Origin: Bifidobacterium actinocoloniiforme DSM 22766
GTDB taxonomy: Bacteria; Actinomycetota; Actinomycetes; Actinomycetales; Bifidobacteriaceae
Reading direction: 5' to 3'
Length of the DNA: 64,000 nt
Assembly: GCF_001263395.1 (NCBI RefSeq)
Contig: NZ_CP011786.1
Coordinates: 1,302,001 to 1,366,000, forward strand
Of the stretch, positions 158-12,252 are shown piece after piece. How positions within the stretch are numbered: position 1 is the first letter of the stretch; every line of letters begins with the position of its first letter. A model generated the notes under the pieces. The model was not told the DNA's origin. It saw nothing but the letters and a program-made list of their open reading frames with translations, and did no database searches. Made by a program: the position numbers and the translations under genes.

Positions 158-520
158 TCAGCCGCGAACGGCCCCTGCCACCATGCCGGAAATAACCTGC
201 CTGTTCAGGAAGAAATACAGGATCAGCATCGGCACCATCGACACGACAATGGCGGAATAGGTGGCTCCAAGATCTGTCTGCCCATACATGCCGACAAAAT
301 CGTTCAGGCCGATCGGGAGGGTCTTCATGTCACTTTGCACCATGAGCGTGTTGGCGAAGACGAACTCGTTCCAGATGAAAACGAAGTTATAGGTCGCCAC
401 GGTGACCGTCGTATTGCGAGAAAGCGGCATTACGATCCGGGAGAACACCTGCCAGGTCCCGGCCCCATCGATACGGGCGGCCTCCAGTAGGGAATCCGGT
501 ATCTCCTTCATGTAGCTATA
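158..520 (-). pseudogene. Remnant of MalG-type carbohydrate ABC permease (3' half)
   Basis: The C-terminal half of a sugar ABC-transporter inner-membrane permease (MalG/binding-protein-dependent transport family). The conserved EAA loop that contacts the ATPase is visible (EAARIDGAG), followed by two hydrophobic segments and the typical C-terminal end. Only about 117 residues remain where the family has about 280-300. The frame meets a stop just upstream of the homology, so the first half is missing and no start with a ribosome-binding site is present. I read it as a truncated relic. Solute-binding proteins elsewhere in the window lack permease partners, but this fragment cannot serve them. 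Confidence 0.8.
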
Positions 521-963
521 GTCACGAACGCCTAGACGCCCGCTATGTTAAAAGAAATACTCCTTTCGACCTGCTTAGCCTCTGGCGCCCTACCTTCCTC
601 CAAGACCGGCATTGAGGAAAGCGCAGCCATCGCAGTCCCTTTACGCTAAAGCCAGCATTACAAAAGCCTTACATTCACTTAATACGACATAAGTAGCGTC
701 GCGCCACCGGAAACCAGGAGCACAACGACACGGGAATACAGTTTCGCACGAACCTATAAACAAGCGAAAACAGGTCATATCCTGAACGGTCGACTTCCAA
801 CAAATTGAGCATGGATGCGAGCGGCTGCAGGTAATACGCTCTTGGTGAGGAATAAGTATCTTAGGCAAGAGATTTCGTCTAATAGCAGAATGAATAAAGA
901 ACATATGGTTACACTTAAACTGTTTATTAATATTCGAAATGTGAGAGAAAGGGGGTTGATTGA
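521..963. other. Intergenic stretch without a recognisable gene
   Basis: About 440 bases between the permease relic and the first Cys-tail protein. The stretch is more AT-rich than its neighbours. Short open frames on both strands have no recognisable sequence. It probably carries the promoter of the downstream gene, but I could not pick a convincing -35/-10 pair. Confidence 0.5.
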
Positions 964-1890
964 ATGCCTAGCAAGGAGACACGGGACAAGAAAACAGCAT
1001 CCGCATGGAAACGCTGGGGCGCGCCTGCAACCGTGGTGGTCGTCGTCGCATCATTCGCAAGCGGCTGGGGCTTATACCGCTGGAACGTTGAAAAGCACAA
1101 CGAAGCACTGACCGAATGCCGGCAAGCGGAAACACGGTTGACCACTACGGCCAAAACGGGGGAGACGAAACTACTGGCGGAGGCGCGCATGGTGAGGACG
1201 GACCAGGTGGTCGACGCCGGTACGGTGACCGCCTTCCAAAAAGACGCTTTACCAGCTGAGCCGGTCAAGCCTGCGACCTGCCAAGCCTCCCAAGACGAGA
1301 CCGCTTTGCGGGCGGCAGCTGAGCGAATGGACACTCAAGCCGACTCCCGCAAGGCGGCCATAGCCAAGGCGGAGCGGGCTGCGAAGGCTGTGTTGGCTTC
1401 GCGGGATGCGAAGAGTTTGGCGGACGCTAAGGCCGCGTTGAAAGCGAAGCAGGACGAGGGTTCGGCGCGTTTGGCGCAGACCGACGGGCAGGTGGCCGAT
1501 GACGCCACCCGTGAGCGGCTGCTGCAGGCGTTGGACGCGGCGGGCAAGGTCTCCTCCTCGAAGCCGTCCGACTACCAGCAGGCGCAGGCCGCCATCCAGG
1601 CCGCGCTCGACCAGGTCAACGCCAGCGCGCAGGCGAAGGCCGAGGCGGACGCTCAGGCCGCGCAGCAGCCGGCCCCTTCATACGGTGGCGTCGGGAGCGC
1701 GCCCTCCTACCGGCCTCCTGCCAATCGCGGCGGCGGTGGCGGCGGGTACGCTCCGGCGCCAGCCCCCGCGCCCGCGCCGGCGGCGCACGCCGCGCCACAA
1801 GGCGGCGGATCAAGCGCTCAGAGCCGATTGCCTCCATTAGATACAAATCATCATGGTTGTAACCCGGATGGTTCGTGTGGTATTGGCTGA
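964..1890 (+). CDS. Membrane-anchored Ala-rich protein with conserved Cys tail (copy 1)
   Basis: Function unknown; proteins of this look in bifidobacteria are sometimes loosely labelled colicin transporter, which the sequence does not support. The 308-residue protein has a short basic N-terminus, one membrane segment (about residues 20-38), then an extracytoplasmic Ala/Lys/Asp-rich helical region with a Cys pair (C52, C106). A Pro/Gly/Ala-rich linker (about 236-290) follows, and the protein ends HGCNPDGSCGIG with C299 and C305. The paralogue at 4647-5609 shares this layout, both Cys pairs and the identical end. The start is preceded by an AGAAAGGGGG ribosome-binding site. Polarity predicts the tail outside the cell, where the last two Cys could form a small disulfide loop. 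The downstream neighbour is a (broken) secreted-protein gene, repeated after the second copy. Confidence 0.75.
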   Translation: MPSKETRDKKTASAWKRWGAPATVVVVVASFASGWGLYRWNVEKHNEALTECRQAETRLTTTAKTGETKLLAEARMVRTDQVVDAGTVTAFQKDALPAEPVKPATCQASQDETALRAAAERMDTQADSRKAAIAKAERAAKAVLASRDAKSLADAKAALKAKQDEGSARLAQTDGQVADDATRERLLQALDAAGKVSSSKPSDYQQAQAAIQAALDQVNASAQAKAEADAQAAQQPAPSYGGVGSAPSYRPPANRGGGGGGYAPAPAPAPAPAAHAAPQGGGSSAQSRLPPLDTNHHGCNPDGSCGIG

Positions 1891-1997
1891 TTGATTAAGA
1901 ATGTGCCAGCGGGATTGGCTGGTTTGGACGCTACCTATCCCACTGGCGTTTTGAGGACGACCATAACGGTCATCCCCTTCATAGTAAGGGAAAGCAT

Positions 1998-2503
1998 ATG
2001 AAGAAACTGGAGTTATTAACCAATCCCAGCAGGGCGAGGAAGGGCGTGTCCATCGTTTCGGCGGTGGCGGCTTTGATCGCCGGAGTAGCGCTCGCCTGCG
2101 GCAACAACAATAGCGACGACTCCGAACCTATGGATATCTCGCGACAGCGGACCTACAAGGACAACGATGACAGAACCGATAGCGGTTACGACACATCCGC
2201 TGTCAATATAACTTTCATCGATATGGGTGCAGCTCCTTCGACAACCATTGTCAGCAAGGCCCAGGCCACGCTGAACGCATCCAACACCGATTGTGCCAAG
2301 CGATTCAACACTCCGCGCCTCGAACTAATCGTCCCGGCAGCCTGCCGTGTCATAAAAGTGAGGGCGATGACCGGTCCGAGCAGCCAATTCATCCACCAGA
2401 TGCATCATCTCAGGTCTGGCTGTATGCAAACTCGGGCGAATACAATAAACAGGCGTATCTACAACAGCAACGCCTCTCAATGTGCAATAGCCGACACTTT
2501 TAA
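1998..2503 (+). pseudogene. Frameshifted exported/lipoprotein-like gene following Cys-tail copy 1
   Basis: It begins MKKLELLTNPSRARKG, a basic N-terminus, then a hydrophobic segment ending ALAC followed by a hydrophilic GNNNSDDSEP stretch. This suggests an exported protein, possibly a lipoprotein, although the residue three before the Cys is Ala rather than the usual Leu. A sensible protein-like reading continues to about position 2300, then appears to resume in another frame (ASSQVWLYANSGEYNKQ, AYLQQQ) up to a stop at 2503. That implies a frameshift around 2300-2340. The original frame stays open to 3218, but past about 2630 it runs antisense to a symporter relic and is not real coding. GGGAAAGC precedes the ATG. 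The same start region recurs at 5716. Confidence 0.55.
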
Positions 2504-2633
2504 CGACCAACAAGGCAAGCCCGTTAATCCTTCAGTTCTGAGTTCACATTCCCCAAAAAGCACTTCAGCCATCGAATATTGTGGCTTCATGCGTCTCGGA
2601 ACGTGCGATTGCGCGCCACCAATGGTTCCATTG

Positions 2634-3434
2634 CTACCATGCCCGGTGCACTGCCTCCGCGGTTTCTCCCTCCCCACCCGCGTTCGGAGTGATTCTGGTC
2701 TTGTCCAAGAGCGTGACGAGCAGGTAGGAAATCAAACCAATGGCTATGCCGAACATAATCGGCCAGTTGCCCCCCAAAGCAAAGTCGGCCTTGTGGGTCA
2801 TGCCACCATAGGCCATCGTGCCAGCGACTGTGAACGCGCTCATGACCAACGAGGCGAAACCGGCTCTAGGCGAGATCCTCTTGACCAGGAAGGAGAAAAT
2901 GACGGGGATGAACACACAACCCTACAGAAAAGCGTACGCCAGGTCGAGCGCTTTGAACAGGTCCCCTATGGCCAGCGAGACGTCGATTGTGACCAATCCA
3001 ACCACCAGCGCTATCCCGCGGTTAATCCACGCGTCCTTGCTGCTATTAGCCTGATTCTGCGAGTCATGCGAAATCTCCTCCGAAGGTCCACGACGGATGA
3101 AACGCACATACAAATCGTCGTAGACCACCGTCGAGCAAGCCAGGATGGTCCCGGAGGCCACGGACATAGAAGCCGCAAGCGCCACCGCAAGCAGCAACCC
3201 CACGACTCCCTGCGGTAGGAAAGCTGAGATACCAGCTTCAAACGCCATCGACGGGTCACTGAGCTTAATGCCGGCGGCATACACCGACATACCGAGCATA
3301 ATGGCGGCCAGTGAATAGAAGATGGCGTACACGCCGGCAGTTATGGTACCCCTACGGGCAATCTTCGGAGTTCGAGCTGTGAACATCCGCTGCCAGATGT
3401 CCTGGCCGATCACCAATCCAAGTACCAAGTACAT
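2634..3434 (-). pseudogene. Sodium:solute symporter remnant with in-frame stop
   Basis: The C-terminal two thirds of an SSS-family (PanF/PutP-like) sodium-coupled symporter. Recognisable parts are GQDIWQRMFTARTPKIARRG, the helix containing ALAASMSVASGTILACSTVV, the segment DLFKALDLAYAFL, and then GCVFIPVIFSFLVKRISPRAG. Between AYAFL and GCVFIP lies a single TAG codon (2922-2924) in the same frame, so the gene carries a nonsense mutation. Upstream of about 3434 the homology dissolves and the N-terminal helices are lost. The product would have been an inner-membrane transporter, substrate unknown. It converges with the frameshifted gene at 1998. Confidence 0.8.
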
Positions 3435-3980
3435 ACAGTAGGACCCAGTACAAGGTTCCTGAAGGCCCGCATGTACCCAGATTCCAGTGACTTTGCGGTA
3501 TCTTGCCCATAAACCCCGTAGTGCCCTTATCTTCGGGTCGGGGAGTAGAAAAAACGGTACGAGAAGCATGACTCCCAGAGCCTTAACACGAACTATGACC
3601 ATTCACGAACAGTCACAAAACGGTCAGGCATTGGACCTTCTAAGGGATGAGGTGAAACGTCTCCGGACTGACAACGCAGTGCCAAAAGGAGCGAAATCAC
3701 CGCTCTTTTGAAGCCCAGACCTCGGCATTGGCGGCAGCAGTGGGCCGGGAATCACAACGGCGCGCGTTCGGACCAAGGCCCCGGCCAACCTCAGGATTGA
3801 ACGGCAGGCGCACGATCCCGTCCGAACGCCCGCGCATGATTCATTTCGATGACCACAGGGCTCCCGGCGCAGGCACACAGGGAACACCCCCTCTTACTCT
3901 TCTCGGCCGGGTCTTGCAAGGCGCCCACGCGCGCAAAACCCCTCAAAAAAAGCCTGAAGCAGGCGCCCGGGAGCTAGGCC
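3435..3980. other. Degraded intergenic stretch
   Basis: About 540 bases without a supportable gene. A plus-strand frame near 3610-3710 reads LLRDEVKRLRTDNAVPKGAK, faintly like the coiled coil of an IS3-type OrfA. It stops immediately and nothing else of a transposase can be traced with confidence. Confidence 0.4.
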
Positions 3981-4379
3981 TCAGTAATGCAGCGACATCA
4001 ACAGATCCGCGACCTGATCGCGGGTGGCCTGATCAATGGTGGTAGCCTTATCCAGGATGATTTTGATTTGGCTAGCGACCTCGACAACCTGATCGGAATC
4101 CGAATCATCCACCAAAGCCTTTATCTGAAGCCACTCTGTGAACACTCGGTAAGCTTTGTCCTCGGCCTTGCTCTCATAAGTCAACGGCTTGCCCGAACGC
4201 TCGATGCGGCTGAGGGAATCCAAAGTCTCCGCAATCATGGTCCTCAAGGAGCGAGCTGCGATCCCCCGCTTGCGTTTTTTGTCAAAATAACTCTGATAAA
4301 AGGAGAAGAAGAGAGTGGTCAGCACCGCCGCCATCTCGGCCAACCCCGTGACCCACTCGGCAAGATTTCCTATTTCCAT
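3981..4379 (-). CDS. Small hypothetical protein with N-terminal membrane segment
   Basis: A 132-residue protein of unknown function. Residues about 8-29 form one hydrophobic segment (LAEWVTGLAEMAAVLTTLFF), followed by a basic DKKRKR patch, as in a single-pass protein with the rest in the cytoplasm. The remainder is mainly helical and charged, with no catalytic motif that I recognise. Codon use looks normal for the genome and the frame is intact in a zone otherwise full of broken genes, so I accept it as a probable gene. No partner is evident. Confidence 0.5.
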   Translation of the reverse strand: MEIGNLAEWVTGLAEMAAVLTTLFFSFYQSYFDKKRKRGIAARSLRTMIAETLDSLSRIERSGKPLTYESKAEDKAYRVFTEWLQIKALVDDSDSDQVVEVASQIKIILDKATTIDQATRDQVADLLMSLHY

Positions 4380-4646
4380 GCATCACAGGATACCGGAGGC
4401 CTTCGATACCGCGAATCCCGCCATCCCGGCGCCGTGCCGCGAAACCATCCCCTGAGCACACGGAACCGAGACGCGAGCGGAGACGCCCACCACGCCAGGG
4501 CGAAATCCACGCCTAGAGTGGACTTGCCCATGTTGCACTAGAGGTGTGGAAGTGGGTTTACGCATGACTGGGCATATCACCTGCCAAAATGAATTGTGAG
4601 GCTGCCAGAGAAGCCTAGCTACTCACGTAAAGGGGAGAAGACAATC

Positions 4647-5609
4647 ATGGGAGAAGGGCAACAAACAGAAAACGTTAAACGGCCTGGGAAGCGGTGGGCC
4701 ATTCCTGTCGCCGCCCTCGTCGTCGTGGTTTTGTGCGCTGGCGGTTGGGGGATTCACCGGCTGAAAACCTCTCGTCATGAGGATGCGGTGGCGGCGTGCC
4801 AGAACGCTGCCGGCCGGCTGACCCGCGCGGATAAACCTATAGGTTCGAAGCAACTGACGGAGGCGCGCGGGGTGCAGGCCGGCCAGGTGGCCGACGCCAA
4901 GACCGTTACCGGCTACCAGAGGGCCGTGAAAGCCGTGGCCACGGTCAAGCCAGCGTCGTGCGACGCCTCCCTGGGCACGTCGGATCTGCGGTCGGCTGCG
5001 GATCGGATGGACGCCGCCGCCGCCAAGCGCGAGGACCAGGACAAGTCCATCGAGCGGGCTGCGAAGGCGGTGTTGGCTTCGCGGGATGCGAAAACCTTGG
5101 CGGACGCGAAGTCGGATTTGAATGGGAGGAGGGATGAAGCGGCCAAGCTGTTGGGGGACAGTGATGGGAAGGTGGCTGATAACGCCACCCGCGACGCGTT
5201 GAGCAAGGCCATCGACCAGGCCGGCGGGGTCAAGGGCGATAAGGCAAAGGATTACCAGGACGCGGCTAACGCGCTGCGGTCGGCCATGGATCAGATCAAC
5301 GCTTCGATGCAGGCGAAGGCCGAGGCGGACGCGCAGGCCGCCGGCCAGGCGGCGCCGGCCCCGGTCGTCCAGCAGGCGGCCCCGGTCCAACGGTCGGCCC
5401 CTTCCTACGGCGGGGACGGGTACGCGCCTTCCTACCGGCCTTCCGTTAATCGTGGCGGCGGCTGGTCCGCTCCGGCGCCAGCCCCCGCGCCAGCGCCAGC
5501 GCCTGCTGCGCCACAAGGCGGAGGCTCGAATTGGAGGGAAAGGCTCAACAGCCAAAAACCGATAGGCAATCATGGTTGTAATCCGGATGGTTCGTGTGGT
5601 ATTGGCTGA
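4647..5609 (+). CDS. Membrane-anchored Ala-rich protein with conserved Cys tail (copy 2)
   Basis: Paralogue of the protein at 964-1890 with the same order of parts: basic N-terminus (KRPGKRW), one membrane segment (about 18-36), Cys at 51 and 105, a helical Ala/Asp/Lys-rich region containing ERAAKAVLASRDAK, a Pro/Ala/Gly linker, and the end NHGCNPDGSCGIG. It is 320 residues from the ATG at 4647, which has AGGGGAG at a good distance; an upstream in-frame ATG at 4596 lacks one. The linker and central helices diverge from copy 1, while the tail and some bases after the stop are nearly identical. Function is unknown. The predicted topology puts the Cys tail outside the cell. Confidence 0.75.
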   Translation: MGEGQQTENVKRPGKRWAIPVAALVVVVLCAGGWGIHRLKTSRHEDAVAACQNAAGRLTRADKPIGSKQLTEARGVQAGQVADAKTVTGYQRAVKAVATVKPASCDASLGTSDLRSAADRMDAAAAKREDQDKSIERAAKAVLASRDAKTLADAKSDLNGRRDEAAKLLGDSDGKVADNATRDALSKAIDQAGGVKGDKAKDYQDAANALRSAMDQINASMQAKAEADAQAAGQAAPAPVVQQAAPVQRSAPSYGGDGYAPSYRPSVNRGGGWSAPAPAPAPAPAPAAPQGGGSNWRERLNSQKPIGNHGCNPDGSCGIG

Positions 5610-5715
5610 TTGATTAAGAATGTGCCAGCGGGGCTGAATACTTAGCAGGTTCCCGCCCCGCTGGCTAGGTTGGACGAGCACGTGTGCCCGTCCCCTTCAT
5701 GGTAAGGGAAAGCAT

Positions 5716-5760
5716 ATGAAGAAACTGGGGTTATTCAGCAATCTCGGCAAGGCGAGAATG
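5716..5760 (+). pseudogene. Truncated second copy of the exported-protein gene
   Basis: The leader and first codons (MKKLGLFSNLGKAR) match the start of the gene at 1998 (MKKLELLTNPSRAR), including the upstream sequence CCCTTCATGGTAAGGGAAAGCAT. After about 14 codons the match ends abruptly and the DNA becomes the minus-strand YfcC relic. The frame then closes at 5850. This is a breakpoint scar: the second duplicated unit lost its downstream gene. Confidence 0.75.
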
Positions 5761-5811
5761 CCGTCAGGTGGCGAATACTGGATAGAGCCTGCCCAACTTT
5801 ATCCATCTGGC

Positions 5812-5968
5812 AGGCGCCGCCGGGCGCAAACCACGTCAGCACACCGATGAACGCAATGACGAGAAATAGGATGACGTAGGCGTTCGGCATCGAGTTTTTC
5901 TTAACCTTCCTTTCAGCAGGTTTGCCCGAAGCCACACTCGCCATGAGTGTCTCCATCGACTTATTCAA
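5812..5968 (-). pseudogene. N-terminal fragment of YfcC-type transporter
   Basis: The fragment reads KKNSMPNAYVILFLVIAF, then LTWFAPGG, which is the N-terminal cytoplasmic start and first membrane helix of the YfcC/DcuC-like anaerobic carrier family (normally about 480-500 residues). About 50 residues remain before the sequence joins the truncated copy of the exported-protein gene. It is non-functional, and its reading frame ends near 5735. Confidence 0.65.
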
Positions 5969-6756
5969 ATTCCGGCGATAACGCGGGCCTATACGCTTAT
6001 TAACGGCACCCTACCGACCATGCGGAGGACGTGATAAGCGGTAATAGGTGGTCAAATTGAGGGCGCCTGCAGATCACCCAGAGTAGTGGCCATACCTGCT
6101 TTGATTGTGCGCGCCTGTTCTCGGTCTCCTTAAACTGGTGACCGTATCGAGGGCTACTGTGAAGGCCGAACGGGTTCGCGTAGATGTCTTTTCAAAACCA
6201 TGTTCCTCCCCTTGAAATAGCTGTGGAGAACTCGCCAGCGTTTCAGGCACTTCAACTGAATTGCCAAACGATTAGTCAATTCAGTTCGTCAGCGCTGTAA
6301 TTGCGCGTTAATAATACGGTCCGCCCTTGGGAGTGAGAATGACCTGTCATACGTACCGTCCTTGATCCGCGTATTTCTTCTTCAAAACACTGCAAGCTCT
6401 CCGCAAGCCCGACGGACGACGAATCAAGTAACTCTAGGTCGAAATCCAACCCGAATCATCTTCGGGTCGCCCTCCCCTCCTTGGCTACATTCAGACCATT
6501 ACGGCAGACGCATGTTGCCAAACTCAATGGGGTTCACGATTCAAGAGAACACCTCTCCACAACAGTCCCACTCGACGGCTATGCGTTAAGTGGAGAGCAC
6601 AACCTAGTGTGAGCATTGTCGAAGGTCGCCACGTTCATAGCGAAACCCGCGTTTCGTAGTAGTAGATGACTAATATTGGGCTCCTGGTATGCCCGCAGCA
6701 CCCTGTGCCTGGCGGACGAGCCGGACCACGACCCCCGAAGGAAGACGACAATAACC
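5969..6756. other. Long intergenic stretch without a recognisable gene
   Basis: About 790 bases with only short open frames lacking any family signature. The last part contains the ribosome-binding site (GAAGGAAG near 6737) for the YhgE-like gene. I see no RNA gene, repeat or strong hairpin here. Confidence 0.5.
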
Positions 6757-9357
6757 ATGAGGAACGTGCTTGCCATCGTCAGAAGAGACGCGCTGCGGTT
6801 GTTGCGTGTACCTGCGGCATGGGTGATTATGTTCGGCCTCGTCTTCATCCCGCCGCTCTACGCTTGGTTCAACGTCCTTGGCTTCTGGAATCCGTACGGG
6901 AACACGCTTAACATCCGCGTGGCCGTAGTGAATGAAGACAAGGGCGCCAACTCCGAAATCATGGGCAAGGTGAACCTGGGCGGCCAAATCGTCTCCCAGC
7001 TCAAGTCGAACAAGCAACTGGGCTGGCAGTTCGTGGACCGGGACGAGGCCCTTGACCAGGTCAAGTCGGGCAGGAGTTACGCGGCCATCATCATTCCGCG
7101 TGACTTCAGCAAGCAGCTCTCCAGTGTGGTGACCGACGGATCGGCCCGCCCCCAGCTCCAGTATTACGTCAACGAAAAGGCCAACGCCATCGCCACCAAG
7201 GTGACCGACACCGGCGCCGCCACGGTCGACAAACAGGTGAATAACACCTTCGTTTCCACCGTCTCCAAGGTGGTTTCCAGCGCGGTCGACACCACCAACG
7301 AGAACCTCAACCAGGCAAGTAAAGCGGCCGGCAACCAGGCGGAATCCGATCTCGCGGCCTTGCAGGGCAACATCAACAAAGCCCGCTCGACCATCAGCGA
7401 TGTAAGCGGCCAACTCTCGCAGGTGCCCAACCAGACCCAGCAGGCGCGCATAGCCCTGAACCAAGCCGACAACCTCAAGAGTGACGCCGGCCGGTCGCTT
7501 TCCTCCATGTCCACACTGCTGAGCCAGGCCCAAGGCGAGCTCAACGGGTTCATCGACTCCTCTTCCACGAACCTCGATCAAGCGTCCTCCCAGCTGGGCC
7601 AGGCCAGCGCCCAGGCAAACGTGGCCGTCTCCCAGGCGACCGGCATGCTGGCCGAAGCCAATGGTGGCGTAGGTTCGGCGATCGCCCAAGCCAAACAGCT
7701 CAACCAGTCGAACGCGCAGATCATCAAGGATTTAGAGGACCTAGGCCTGCCGAACACCAGCGGCATCATCAACCAGCTCAAGGCTCAAAACCAGTCCCTA
7801 GGCCAATCAATCAGGGCCCTGGAGCAGCTGAACGCGGACACCGGCGCCACCATCGCCTCCACCGCCTCACTAGCGGACACCCTCAACCACGCCACCCAGA
7901 ACTCCCTGTCCGCCTCAGGCAACGCCCGCAAAAACATCATCGCCGGAACCCTGCCCCAGCTCAACAACGGCTTGAACTCCCTCTCCTCCGCCTCGGGTGG
8001 CCTGGGCGCCAGGCTGAGCTCGCAAGGCACCACCATCGCGCAAGCGAAGGCGATCCTGGGCCAGCTGGATCAGGCCACCTCATCAACCCGCCAGTCCCTG
8101 GCCTCCACCGACTCCTACCTTTCCGGGCTGCAAGGCAAACTGACCACCCTCTCCACCGACATCGACGCGCTGGACACCGCCAACGCCCTGCCCCAAGTTT
8201 TTGGCAAAGACGGAAAGCTCGATGCGGCGAAAGTGGCGGACTTCATGCTTTCGCCCACCGTGCTCGACACTAAGGTGCTCTACCCGGTGGCTTCCTATGG
8301 CTCCGGCATGGCCCCCCTCTTCGTCAACCTCTCGCTATGGGTGGGCGCGTTCGTGCTGATGGTCATCGTCAAGCTGGAGGTGGACGACGAAGGCCTGGAC
8401 GACCCCACGCCCACGGAGCGCTACTGGGGCCGTTGGCTCCTCCTAGCGCCCCTGGCGGCCCTGCAAGGCGTCACCACCACCATCGGGACCATACTGATCG
8501 GCGTGCAGACCATCTCAGCCCCCCTGTTCGTGCTGACCGGCGCAATCACCTCCCTGATATACCTGTCCATCGCCTACGCCCTCTCGACCACGTTCATGCA
8601 CGTGGGCAAGGGCCTGTGCGTCGTGTTGGTCATCCTGCAGATTCCCGGCGCATCCGGCCTCTACCCCATCGAGATGATGCCCTCCTTCTTCCGCCGGCTC
8701 TACCCCTTCTTCCCGTTCACCTACTCAATCAACGCCCTGCGCGAGACGATCGGCGGCTTTTACCGCAACGATTGGGCCATGGACCTGGCCAAGCTCGGTG
8801 TATTCGCCCTTCTCTTCTTCGTCCTCGGCATCTACGGGCGGCCCCGGCTCAACAACCTCAATCGCTTGTTCGCCCGCGAAATCGAGGACTCGGACATGCT
8901 GGTCGGAGAGCCGGTGGAGCGCATCAGCAGCGAATTCTCCTTGGCCCAGGCCCTGGCCGTGCTCGCCAATAAGGACGAATACCGGCAGGCGATCGTGGCG
9001 CGCGCCACCAGCTTCGCCCGGCTGTACCCCCGGCTCAAGCGAGGGGCCCTGATCGCCGGCATCGTCGTGCCCGCCATCCTGGCGGTCACCTTCTCCTTCA
9101 CTTCCGGCACTATGGTGACCGCCCTGGCGGCCTGGGTCATCTGGATTCTGGTCATCATCGCCTTCCTGATGGCGATTGAGATGATGCGAGACCATGTGGT
9201 GCGCCAAATTCGTCTGGGCACTTTGTCCGAGCAGACCATTCGCGGCATGGTCTTCGACTTCGACCGCCCCCGACGCAAGATTCGGCGCAGGCGGCGGGCC
9301 GCCATGCCGGCCCACCTGCCTTCGGACGTGACCAATCCCGCGGCCAAGCGGGATTAA
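6757..9357 (+). CDS. YhgE/Pip-family membrane protein (866 aa)
   Basis: Membrane protein of the YhgE/Pip (phage infection protein) family, related to ABC-2-type permeases and to EsaA of type VII secretion. One N-terminal membrane helix (LLRVPAAWVIMFGLVFIPPL) precedes a long extracytoplasmic Gln/Ala/Ser-rich coiled-coil region. Five or six C-terminal helices follow, beginning near SLWVGAFVLMVIVKLEV and including a YPIEMMPSFFRRLYPFFPF segment. Beyond that it carries an extra two-helix extension (about the last 130 residues) ending in a basic RRKIRRRRR cytoplasmic tail, which the neighbour lacks. The ATG at 6757 has GAAGGAAG upstream, while earlier in-frame ATGs do not. It forms a likely operon with the paralogue 100 bases downstream. 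Role: probable export or envelope function, unproven. Confidence 0.85.
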   Translation: MRNVLAIVRRDALRLLRVPAAWVIMFGLVFIPPLYAWFNVLGFWNPYGNTLNIRVAVVNEDKGANSEIMGKVNLGGQIVSQLKSNKQLGWQFVDRDEALDQVKSGRSYAAIIIPRDFSKQLSSVVTDGSARPQLQYYVNEKANAIATKVTDTGAATVDKQVNNTFVSTVSKVVSSAVDTTNENLNQASKAAGNQAESDLAALQGNINKARSTISDVSGQLSQVPNQTQQARIALNQADNLKSDAGRSLSSMSTLLSQAQGELNGFIDSSSTNLDQASSQLGQASAQANVAVSQATGMLAEANGGVGSAIAQAKQLNQSNAQIIKDLEDLGLPNTSGIINQLKAQNQSLGQSIRALEQLNADTGATIASTASLADTLNHATQNSLSASGNARKNIIAGTLPQLNNGLNSLSSASGGLGARLSSQGTTIAQAKAILGQLDQATSSTRQSLASTDSYLSGLQGKLTTLSTDIDALDTANALPQVFGKDGKLDAAKVADFMLSPTVLDTKVLYPVASYGSGMAPLFVNLSLWVGAFVLMVIVKLEVDDEGLDDPTPTERYWGRWLLLAPLAALQGVTTTIGTILIGVQTISAPLFVLTGAITSLIYLSIAYALSTTFMHVGKGLCVVLVILQIPGASGLYPIEMMPSFFRRLYPFFPFTYSINALRETIGGFYRNDWAMDLAKLGVFALLFFVLGIYGRPRLNNLNRLFAREIEDSDMLVGEPVERISSEFSLAQALAVLANKDEYRQAIVARATSFARLYPRLKRGALIAGIVVPAILAVTFSFTSGTMVTALAAWVIWILVIIAFLMAIEMMRDHVVRQIRLGTLSEQTIRGMVFDFDRPRRKIRRRRRAAMPAHLPSDVTNPAAKRD

Positions 9358-9457: not shown

Positions 9458-11620
9458 ATGAAGTCCATGTGGGAGCTCTTCACCGGTGACCTCAAGCGAA
9501 TCACCTCCAACATCGTCTCCATCATCATCGTCATAGGGCTCGTCGTGATCCCAGGCCTGTTCGCGTGGTTCAACGTGGCGGCCAGCTGGGACCCCTTCTC
9601 CAACACCAAAAACCTCAAGTTCGCGGTAGCAAATGTGGATAAAGGCTATAAATCCGACCTCATCCCGGTCAAGGTGACGGTGGGTGACCAGGTGGTCAAC
9701 GAGCTGCGCGCCAACAGCCAGCTGGATTGGACCTTCACCTCCAAGGATGACGCCATCGACGGCACTAAATCCGGCAAGTACTACGCCTCCGTCGTCATTC
9801 CCGAAAACTTCAGCCACGACATGATGACCTTCTTCTCGGCCGACGCCCACCACGCCAAGCTGGCCTACTACTCAAACGAGAAGACCAACGCCCTGGCCCC
9901 TAAGGTCACTGGGCAGGGCGCCGACCAGGTGGCCGGGCAGATCAATGAGATGTTCGCCAAGACCATCACCGGCACCGCGCTGTCCATCGCCTCCCAGCTG
10001 GCGGACGAGATGGATCGGCCTGAGGCCAAGACCATGCTGACCCGGTTCACCGGCAACGTGGACGATGTCGCCAAAGAGCTGAGTCAAGCCAGCGCCATCC
10101 TCAACAACTTCGACTCCCTTTCCCAGGACGCGCAAGGCCTGATGACATCCTCCACCCAGATGGTCGACTCCTTGTCGGACGGAGCCAACCAGGCCGGACG
10201 TGACTTGCAGAACGCCAATCATCAGGTGAGTGACGTGTCCGGCGCGCTCGACTCCACCGCTAAGAGCTTGTCGGATGCCTTGGTCGCCTCATCCTCCTCC
10301 TACGATGCGGTGGGCAGCAGCATCGATTCCACCTTCCAAACTGCTAATCATTCAGTGGCGGACGCGGCCGCCGGCCTCAACCGCGAGTCCCAGCAGGTGA
10401 GCCAGCAGGCCGACCAGTACCAGCGGATCCGCGGCGCTCTGGTCGCTACCACCGGCGAGAACTCGGTCTCCCAGCGCCTGGACGCGGTGATTTTGCAGCT
10501 CCGCCAGCTCAGCTCCTCCCTATCATCCACCGCCGCAAACGTGAGCAACAGGAACGCGCAGTCCGCCCAGCAGCGGCAGCAAATCAAGGATCTGGCCGCC
10601 CAGGCCAAAGCTTCGATCTCCGGCGTTTCCAGCGATTTCAACACCAAGCTCAGGCCGCAAATCAAGCAGATCGCATCCTCGGTCAACGCGACCACCGCCA
10701 CGCTCGGGTCCGCAAGCTCACAGCTCAAGAGCACCTTGAGCGGGTTAAGAACCGACACCAGCGCGGTGAATAAAGACATGGCCGACGTGAACGACATGCT
10801 CAGCTCCATGTCAGCCACGATGGCTAAGACCAGCGACCGCCTGACCGACTTCACCGGCAAACTCAACGCCGCCCTGACCAGCGGCGACATGGACACGGTC
10901 CGCCGAATCCTGGGCTCCAACGACCCGGAGACGCTGGCCGCCACTCTGGCGGCGCCGGTCAAACTCAGCCGCACAACCCTGTACCCGGTGCAGTCCTTTG
11001 GCGCGGCCCTGACCCCCTTCTACACCCTGATCCCCTTGTGGGTGGGCTCCCTGTTGATGGCGGTCACGCTGAAAATCACGGTCTCCCGCCGCACACGCGA
11101 AGCCCTAGGCGATCCAAAGCCCCACCAGCTCTTCCTGGGGCACTTTGGCGTGTTCGCGGTGATTTCCCTCCTGCAGTCCACCTTCTCTTGCGCCGGTTCC
11201 CTCCTCTTCATCAGAGTCCATGCGGCGCACCCCTGGCTGTTCATGGCCACCGGCTGGATCAGCGGACTGGTTTACGCCTTCTTCATCTACACCCTTGTCG
11301 CCTCCTTTGGCAACGTAGGCAAGGCCATAGGCGTGATTTACCTGGTCATGCAGATTTCCGGCTCCGGGGGCGCCTACCCCTTGCAAGTACTGCCAGGCTT
11401 CGTCTCAGCGGTCAACCCGTATCTGCCGGTCTCCCACTCAATACAGGCCATGCGCGCCGCAATCGCCGGCATCTACATGAACGACTATTGGATCGAGATC
11501 AGCAAGCTCCTCCTCTTCGTGCCGCCCATGATCCTGCTGGGCCTGGTCCTACGCAAGCCCCTAGTCAAGTTCAACCAGTGGTATGTATCCAAGATAGAAG
11601 CCACCAAACTCATGGAGTAA
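9458..11620 (+). CDS. YhgE/Pip-family membrane protein (720 aa)
   Basis: Second YhgE/Pip protein, co-oriented with the first and 100 bases after it. It has an N-terminal helix (SIIIVIGLVVIPGLFAWF) with the family sequence FNVAASWDPFSNTKNLKFAV, a large extracytoplasmic coiled-coil middle region (about residues 35-510), and a six-helix C-terminal ABC-2-like block starting near YTLIPLWVGSLLMAVTL. A GGGAAGGAAG ribosome-binding site precedes the ATG. The pair may act as a heteromeric membrane complex; that is inference from pairing and family. No ATPase or TetR regulator, often found beside such genes, is adjacent here. Confidence 0.85.
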   Translation: MKSMWELFTGDLKRITSNIVSIIIVIGLVVIPGLFAWFNVAASWDPFSNTKNLKFAVANVDKGYKSDLIPVKVTVGDQVVNELRANSQLDWTFTSKDDAIDGTKSGKYYASVVIPENFSHDMMTFFSADAHHAKLAYYSNEKTNALAPKVTGQGADQVAGQINEMFAKTITGTALSIASQLADEMDRPEAKTMLTRFTGNVDDVAKELSQASAILNNFDSLSQDAQGLMTSSTQMVDSLSDGANQAGRDLQNANHQVSDVSGALDSTAKSLSDALVASSSSYDAVGSSIDSTFQTANHSVADAAAGLNRESQQVSQQADQYQRIRGALVATTGENSVSQRLDAVILQLRQLSSSLSSTAANVSNRNAQSAQQRQQIKDLAAQAKASISGVSSDFNTKLRPQIKQIASSVNATTATLGSASSQLKSTLSGLRTDTSAVNKDMADVNDMLSSMSATMAKTSDRLTDFTGKLNAALTSGDMDTVRRILGSNDPETLAATLAAPVKLSRTTLYPVQSFGAALTPFYTLIPLWVGSLLMAVTLKITVSRRTREALGDPKPHQLFLGHFGVFAVISLLQSTFSCAGSLLFIRVHAAHPWLFMATGWISGLVYAFFIYTLVASFGNVGKAIGVIYLVMQISGSGGAYPLQVLPGFVSAVNPYLPVSHSIQAMRAAIAGIYMNDYWIEISKLLLFVPPMILLGLVLRKPLVKFNQWYVSKIEATKLME

Positions 11621-11713: not shown

Positions 11714-11998
11714 ATGCAGGCCGTAGCGTACAGCAACTTCCGCAAGAGCCTTAAGGCGTACATGCATAAGGTCAACGAGGACGCGGATATGCTCCTGGTG
11801 ACCAACACCGACCCAGAAGACAACGTGGTCGTGATGAGCGCCGATGATTACGACTCCCTCATGGAGACCCTACGCATCTACCAAAACCCGTATCTGCGCG
11901 ATAAAATCACCCGCGGTCTGGCAGCGGTAGCTCAGGGCCAGGCCAGCGAACACAGCCTGGTCGACGACGACGAGCCGGAGCGCCGGGCGGCGGCATGA
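11714..11998 (+). CDS. yefM: Antitoxin, YefM/Phd family
   Basis: A 94-residue antitoxin of a type II toxin-antitoxin pair. It neutralises the neighbouring YoeB ribonuclease and represses the operon as a complex. The N-terminal Phd/YefM fold is recognisable (AVAYSNFRKSLKAYMHKV, then NVVVMSADDYDSLMETL). The C-terminal 25-30 residues are acidic and flexible, as expected for the toxin-binding part. Its stop overlaps the toxin start (ATGA), the usual translationally coupled order. GGAGGAGG precedes the ATG. Confidence 0.92.
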   Translation: MQAVAYSNFRKSLKAYMHKVNEDADMLLVTNTDPEDNVVVMSADDYDSLMETLRIYQNPYLRDKITRGLAAVAQGQASEHSLVDDDEPERRAAA

Positions 11999-12252
11999 TT
12001 CTGGGCTGGACCGAAGACGCTTGGGAGGACTACCGCTACTGGCAGTCCCAGGACCGTAAAACCCTCAAGCGCATCAACACCCTGATTCTCGACACCCTCC
12101 GCCATCCCGACTCCGGCATCGGCAAGCCCGAGCCGCTCAAGTGGGGTCTCCAAGGCGCCTGGTCGCGCCGCATAGACTCCGCCAACCGCCTCATATACAC
12201 CTTCACCGCCACCAAACTGACCATCCTCTCCGCCCGCAGCCACTACCAATAA
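11995..12252 (+). CDS. yoeB: Toxin YoeB, ribosome-dependent mRNA endonuclease
   Basis: An 85-residue RelE-superfamily toxin that cleaves mRNA in the ribosomal A site. Every residue reported as catalytic in the Escherichia coli protein is present at the same number: E46, R59, R65, H83 and Y84, with one extra residue (Q85) at the end. The signature GKPEPLKW, then WSRRID and RLIYTF, is clear. Overlap with yefM by four bases ensures coupled synthesis. Nothing suggests inactivation. Confidence 0.93.
   Translation: MILGWTEDAWEDYRYWQSQDRKTLKRINTLILDTLRHPDSGIGKPEPLKWGLQGAWSRRIDSANRLIYTFTATKLTILSARSHYQ

Follow-up and report, generated by a model that had tools for sequence, protein, structure and literature searches.

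The question raised by this locus is why two membrane proteins encoded in one stretch of DNA should end in exactly the same twelve residues. In this study we focus on 64,000 nucleotides (hereafter the window) of Bifidobacterium actinocoloniiforme DSM 22766, a bacterium of the bumblebee gut with a genome of 1,830,060 bp (PMC4582582). An earlier note on this DNA had described two paralogues whose identity was restricted to their extreme C-terminus, and had ascribed it to selection on the tail or to recombination; our analysis points to the action of both. The best reading is that both genes are orphans, copies from a family of Bifidobacteriaceae surface proteins that has multiplied in bee-gut species, and that their tails would be identical because purifying selection acts on the tip and short 3' cassettes have been exchanged between copies.

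The two window genes and the stretches behind them

The features on which the argument rests are the following, in window coordinates:

964..1890, + strand: orphan copy A, a predicted signal-anchored surface protein of 308 aa with the C-terminal tail HGCNPDGSCGIG
1395..1663, + strand: stretch of ~270 nt, 100% identical to a third copy of the gene (L033 ~6188-6462), with flanks 50-70% identical
1850..1913, + strand: 64-nt tract, probably a recombination tract, shared with 5569..5632 of copy B with one silent mismatch (AAC/AAT)
1852..1887, + strand: tail codons of copy A, encoding HGCNPDGSCGIG
1891..1997, + strand: structured intergenic stretch with three predicted hairpins, the first terminator-like (z = -2.8)
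1998..~2540, + strand: truncated adhesin remnant, N-terminal domain only (tblastn 2e-30)
4647..5609, + strand: orphan copy B, 320 aa from the ATG, with the tail HGCNPDGSCGIG
5571..5606, + strand: tail codons of copy B, encoding HGCNPDGSCGIG
5610..5715, + strand: second structured intergenic stretch, again with three predicted hairpins (z = -2.5)
5716..5757, + strand: start of a second adhesin remnant (MKKLGLFSNLGKAR), beyond which homology ends

An alternative GTG start at 4596 would extend copy B to 337 aa. Over their whole length copies A and B are 52-55% identical, so the sharing of the final 12 residues stands as first described, whereas the claim that identity is restricted to them does not. 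Both ORFs do encode a single hydrophobic segment close to the N-terminus, the one membrane helix that had been predicted, and the Cys pair noticed at about 51 and 105 is invariant across the 18-member alignment (C51 and C105, numbering of the 4647 protein). In the AlphaFold model of copy B, long helices run from residues ~18 to 235, with pLDDT mostly >90 from ~40 to 230, and are followed by a disordered Pro/Gly/Ala linker and a low-confidence tail. Searches of Pfam, NCBIfam, PADLOC and PDB sequences returned no family for the window proteins, and no curated family covers either of them, in line with the earlier remark that no named family was known. The stalk gave no significant fold match with Foldseek against the PDB. 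In distant members it resembles FIVAR (PF07554), a helical surface-protein module, with a best match of 2e-5 and 25.5 bits that lies below the gathering cut-off of 29.2 bits, whereas the window proteins have 0 matches at E<=1; membership of FIVAR is not established.

The remnant at 1998, which lay in the window and had been overlooked, is 36% identical to the intact adhesin of the same genome, and its frame then enters the antisense strand of a broken symporter-like gene. The window holds just the truncated 5' ends of two adhesin genes and no intact one. The intergenic hairpins look like terminator and leader structures in the predicted folds, and the layout of 1891..1997 matches that of the stretch before the intact adhesin gene in L033; Rfam returned nothing in window positions 500-6700.

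Distribution of the family and its adhesin neighbours

Matches to the protein query are present in 25 of the 27 genomes of the genus, and profile matches in 172 of the 189 Bifidobacteriaceae genomes searched. Outside this family occurrence is minimal, with good matches in a single genus from a different family within the same order and also at one Scrofimicrobium locus. In the literature, the terms tried led to no earlier description of the family. Its genes also occur in tandem arrays, some of which are adjoined by RCC1-repeat LPXTG arrays.

At 36 of the 150 family places listed, coming from 34 genomes, a gene with an AgI_II_C2 domain lies 1.2-4.7 kb downstream on the same strand, compared with ~0.2 expected by chance; this following gene had been overlooked by the earlier note. 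The downstream proteins contain AgI_II_C2 and Antigen_C domains (Pfam, E 1e-65 to 1e-89), and their C-terminus is wall-sorting-like, a combination found at loci L033, L094, L097, L101 and L109. For the linked adhesin of L097, the nearest solved structures in a PDB sequence search are PrgB (7e-45) and SpaP (3e-17). The N-terminal domains of these adhesins have two invariant Cys in common and a predicted fold with pLDDT mostly >80; Foldseek found no significant solved-fold match for this domain, and the scans run found no Pfam family.

The organism itself contains a complete unit. Its third copy of the family gene (G000:C1:25744-26700, equivalent to L033:5751-6704), located far from copy A on the chromosome, ends in CQKGQACGIG and is followed by a 106-nt intergenic stretch, then by an intact adhesin of 1,311 aa that contains AgI_II_C2 and Antigen_C domains and ends in a wall-sorting-like sequence.

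Conservation, topology and exchange of the tail

We defined the tail motif as C-x(3-9)-C-x(0-3)-[ILV]-[GD] at the C-terminus. It ends 38 of 89 distinct family ORFs, whereas none of the 2,312 other ORFs of the same loci has it, which excludes chance. The 38 motif-bearing members have 22 distinct tails, among them CNPDGSCGIG, CNSAGVCVLG, CQKGQACGIG, CVKGGACPIG, CTDPNKFCPIG and CDPVTGRCGIG, and the commonest tip form is C-x(4-8)-C-x-[IL]-G. The remaining members end differently: many have two Cys close to the C-terminus, and some have none. Across the 12 members of the GCNPDGSCGIG class, tails have pS 0.46 and pN 0, the latter being partly built in because the class is defined by its residues, against pS 0.59 and pN 0.33 for the bodies. 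Since silent sites have diverged to this extent across species, the tail is more than a recent duplicate, and the idea that everything here is recent duplication is largely ruled out. The tail is thus kept in homologues from other species with changed silent sites, and the refuting outcome proposed earlier, conservation among recent duplicates only, did not occur. In the best explanation the tip is under purifying selection, which would contribute to the identity of the two window tails.

Tail and adhesin are not strictly coupled, because 17 of the 34 motif-bearing copies with enough flanking sequence are unlinked, the other 17 being adhesin-linked, and because the tails of some adhesin-linked members are of another kind or lack Cys; the same even split rules out the motif as a mark of adhesin-linked copies only.

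Exchange between copies A and B probably contributed as well, because the 64-nt tract passes 23 nt beyond the stop codon while its flanks on either side are only ~50-65% identical. Near-identical repeats flanked by distinct gene ends, as expected of variable surface genes that work by inversion or cassette exchange, are present, both in the ~270-nt stretch shared with the third copy and in an 828-bp repeat of another bee-gut species. The ~270-nt stretch is either a signature of gene conversion or a short-read assembly artefact; identical tracts may be artefactual because the published genome was obtained from short reads with reference mapping (PMC4582582).

How far recombination alone accounts for the tails can be judged from the rest of the family. 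The extension of the shared tract into non-coding DNA with one silent difference, together with the body stretch identical to the third copy, would suit recent gene conversion or duplication with no selection at all, but other species have the same residues despite many silent changes, and adhesin-linked members of several genera bear the motif on bodies that are just ~30-50% identical; this account is improbable. A variable display of tips deserves more weight, though we still consider it rather unlikely as the main explanation. According to it, the common stalk of the family presents short Cys-loop tips of different kinds, tails are swapped by homologous recombination, possibly for recognition or for antigenic or phage-receptor variation, and the link to adhesins is ancestral or incidental. 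Bodies that are closely related can bear tails of several unrelated classes, and tail class changes 17 times on the body tree compared with 20-27 times in shuffles (41 rows), so that tails are strongly mixed but still partly inherited. The genome G006, of one bee-gut species, has at locus L038 a divergent gene pair whose bodies are covered by an inverted repeat of 828 bp, 100% identical, with different N-termini and wholly different tails, and at what is apparently the same locus in three other genomes (G002, G011 and G019, three species) two linker-tail ends stand back to back with the bodies missing. The tandem arrays would also fit such a display. However, tail classes partly track the body tree, the C-x-I-G end is conserved rather than diversifying, and no recombinase was recognised beside the L038 pair, where the one flanking ORF scanned gave no Pfam match.

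The two remaining explanations depend on where the tail lies. Positive charge is higher before the helix than after it (mean K+R 3.45 vs 2.03; 26 members vs 2, among the 38 with the motif), and 19 of these 38 contain exactly four Cys, each of them C-terminal to the helix; an N-in/C-out topology is therefore favoured, in keeping with the extracellular tail predicted earlier, and closure of the tail as a disulfide loop is plausible. A likely extracellular C-terminus with two Cys and a small conserved end would also suit a tail that is cleaved to give a free cyclic peptide with a signalling or antimicrobial role, a form of the released peptide that the earlier note had suggested. This proposal gained no support and is, to our mind, about as improbable as conversion alone: in the neighbourhoods listed, of which part of the neighbours were scanned, we recognised none of the protease, exporter, receptor or immunity genes that would accompany a pheromone or bacteriocin precursor, the residues preceding the tail are variable in the 18-member alignment, with no conserved cleavage site, and the linked partner is an adhesin. 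If instead the C-terminus were cytoplasmic, CGIG or CPIG could be a CaaX-like lipid-modification signal or a metal-binding signal, given that the last Cys is fourth from the end in most motif tails. Charge bias and Cys placement point the other way, however, and other tail classes end differently; moreover, prenylation of a bacterium's own proteins is, to our knowledge, not an established process. We regard this explanation as very improbable, and its CaaX-like form as ruled out on topology.

A putative adhesin partner and its known counterparts

The explanation that we prefer, with a probability of roughly 0.45, is that the family protein belongs to an adhesin unit as its signal-anchored accessory or tip-display protein, and that the window contains orphan copies with exchangeable 3' tail cassettes. 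The characteristic unit would consist of two genes, encoding this membrane protein and then a large adhesin of LPXTG type whose C-terminal domains are of the antigen I/II kind (PrgB/SpaP-like). From its predicted layout (a short cytoplasmic N-terminus, one helix, a helical Cys-pair stalk, a disordered Pro/Gly/Ala linker and a C-terminal tip), the membrane-anchored stalk could carry the tip through the wall, and the tip, closed as a disulfide loop outside the cell, may dock or display the adhesin encoded by the next gene, for example by holding the conserved two-Cys N-terminal domain of the adhesin during anchoring. We infer this biochemical role from sequence and gene order. The orphan copies might cooperate in trans with the intact adhesin that the genome encodes elsewhere or, alternatively, present tips in their own right. 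The adhesin-partner explanation and variation of the tips are compatible.

Few bacterial attachment factors have been studied as thoroughly as the antigen I/II-type adhesins. PrgA, a surface exclusion protein encoded beside one of them, has an LPXTG anchor and a protease domain and blocks conjugative entry. The nearest known arrangement appears to be PrgA-PrgB of the enterococcal plasmid pCF10 (PMC7726212), where a surface protein likewise shares an operon with an antigen I/II-type wall-anchored adhesin. The bifidobacterial protein has the corresponding position at the 36 linked places, the window copies having only adhesin remnants behind them. It is not classed as PrgA, because it lacks the LPXTG anchor and any recognisable protease domain of PrgA's description (no such Pfam domain was found), and it ends in a short Cys tail rather than a sorting signal. 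The downstream partner belongs with SpaP, BspA and PrgB by Pfam and PDB sequence matches, but this kinship is the neighbour's and not the tail protein's, and the neighbour's own two-Cys N-terminal domain falls outside it, matching no Pfam family or fold. In Galliscardovia (L101), the unit adjoins the conjugation genes TrbL, TraG-type ATPase and ParA, and a replication-type HTH protein lies near the unit in L101 and L094; no conjugation genes were recognised beside it in the bee species examined. The RCC1-repeat LPXTG arrays of bee bifidobacteria (PMC3447821, PMC4449606) are comparable as tandem, expanding and recombining surface genes, but they encode other proteins, and the tail-protein family is not described in the parts of these papers that deal with them.

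Literature searches with the terms tried found nothing on antigen I/II-type adhesins in bifidobacteria. More tentatively, and with doubt, the family may represent an undescribed bifidobacterial surface system, an adhesin-paired stalk with an exchangeable Cys-loop tip, in which bee-gut arrays and body-less cassettes would swap tips by recombination and so change the specificity of adhesion or recognition. An uncharacterised membrane family this widespread, often encoded directly before an adhesin, could provide a handle on adhesin display in gut symbionts, and the tail cassettes of the bee-gut species would be a simple system in which to test surface variation in a commensal.

Loci with body-less or differing tails

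Body-less pairs of tail cassettes, at about 1140-1515 of three loci: L149, L154 and L160 (genomes G002, G011 and G019)
Divergent pair of family genes in L038 (genome G006, a bee-gut species): 4953-6047 (-) and 6969-8006 (+)

At L149, L154 and L160, one cassette of the GNCIADCYGWTGSN type and one of the C-x5-C-x-IG type lie back to back, and neither is accompanied by a body. These cassettes may be either deletion remnants or silent donor cassettes. In L038, the two bodies share an inverted repeat of 828 bp that is 100% identical (5149-5976 and 7031-7858), but the tails are wholly unlike; the pair is a candidate invertible switch.

Neighbouring genes

RCC1-repeat surface protein genes adjoining family arrays: L037:3-1296 and L039:12752-15004

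Proteins of this kind have been reported from bee bifidobacteria (PMC3447821, PMC4449606).

The window opens with ~6.6 kb that look like a graveyard of gene remnants, among them the first two entries below. By eye, the following were noted in the window:
158-511 (-), putative truncated sugar ABC permease
2634-3602 (-), putative broken solute symporter
6676-9357 and 9458-11620, tandem putative YhgE/Pip-like membrane proteins
11714-12252, putative YefM-YoeB type toxin-antitoxin pair

Adhesin-linked units

Adhesin N-terminal domain: L097:10952-11710 and equivalents
Adhesin-linked family member: L121:6390-7454
Tail protein and AgI/II adhesin unit in Galliscardovia: L101:6333-20645

The N-terminal domain of the adhesin is conserved, spans ~150 residues and contains two invariant Cys; it matched no Pfam family and no fold among solved structures. 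In L121, the tail frame is shifted relative to a near relative in L120, which may reflect a sequencing error, decay or phase variation. Conjugation genes (ParA, TrbL and a TraG-type ATPase) surround the tail protein and adhesin in L101, which suggests that this unit has spread on mobile elements.
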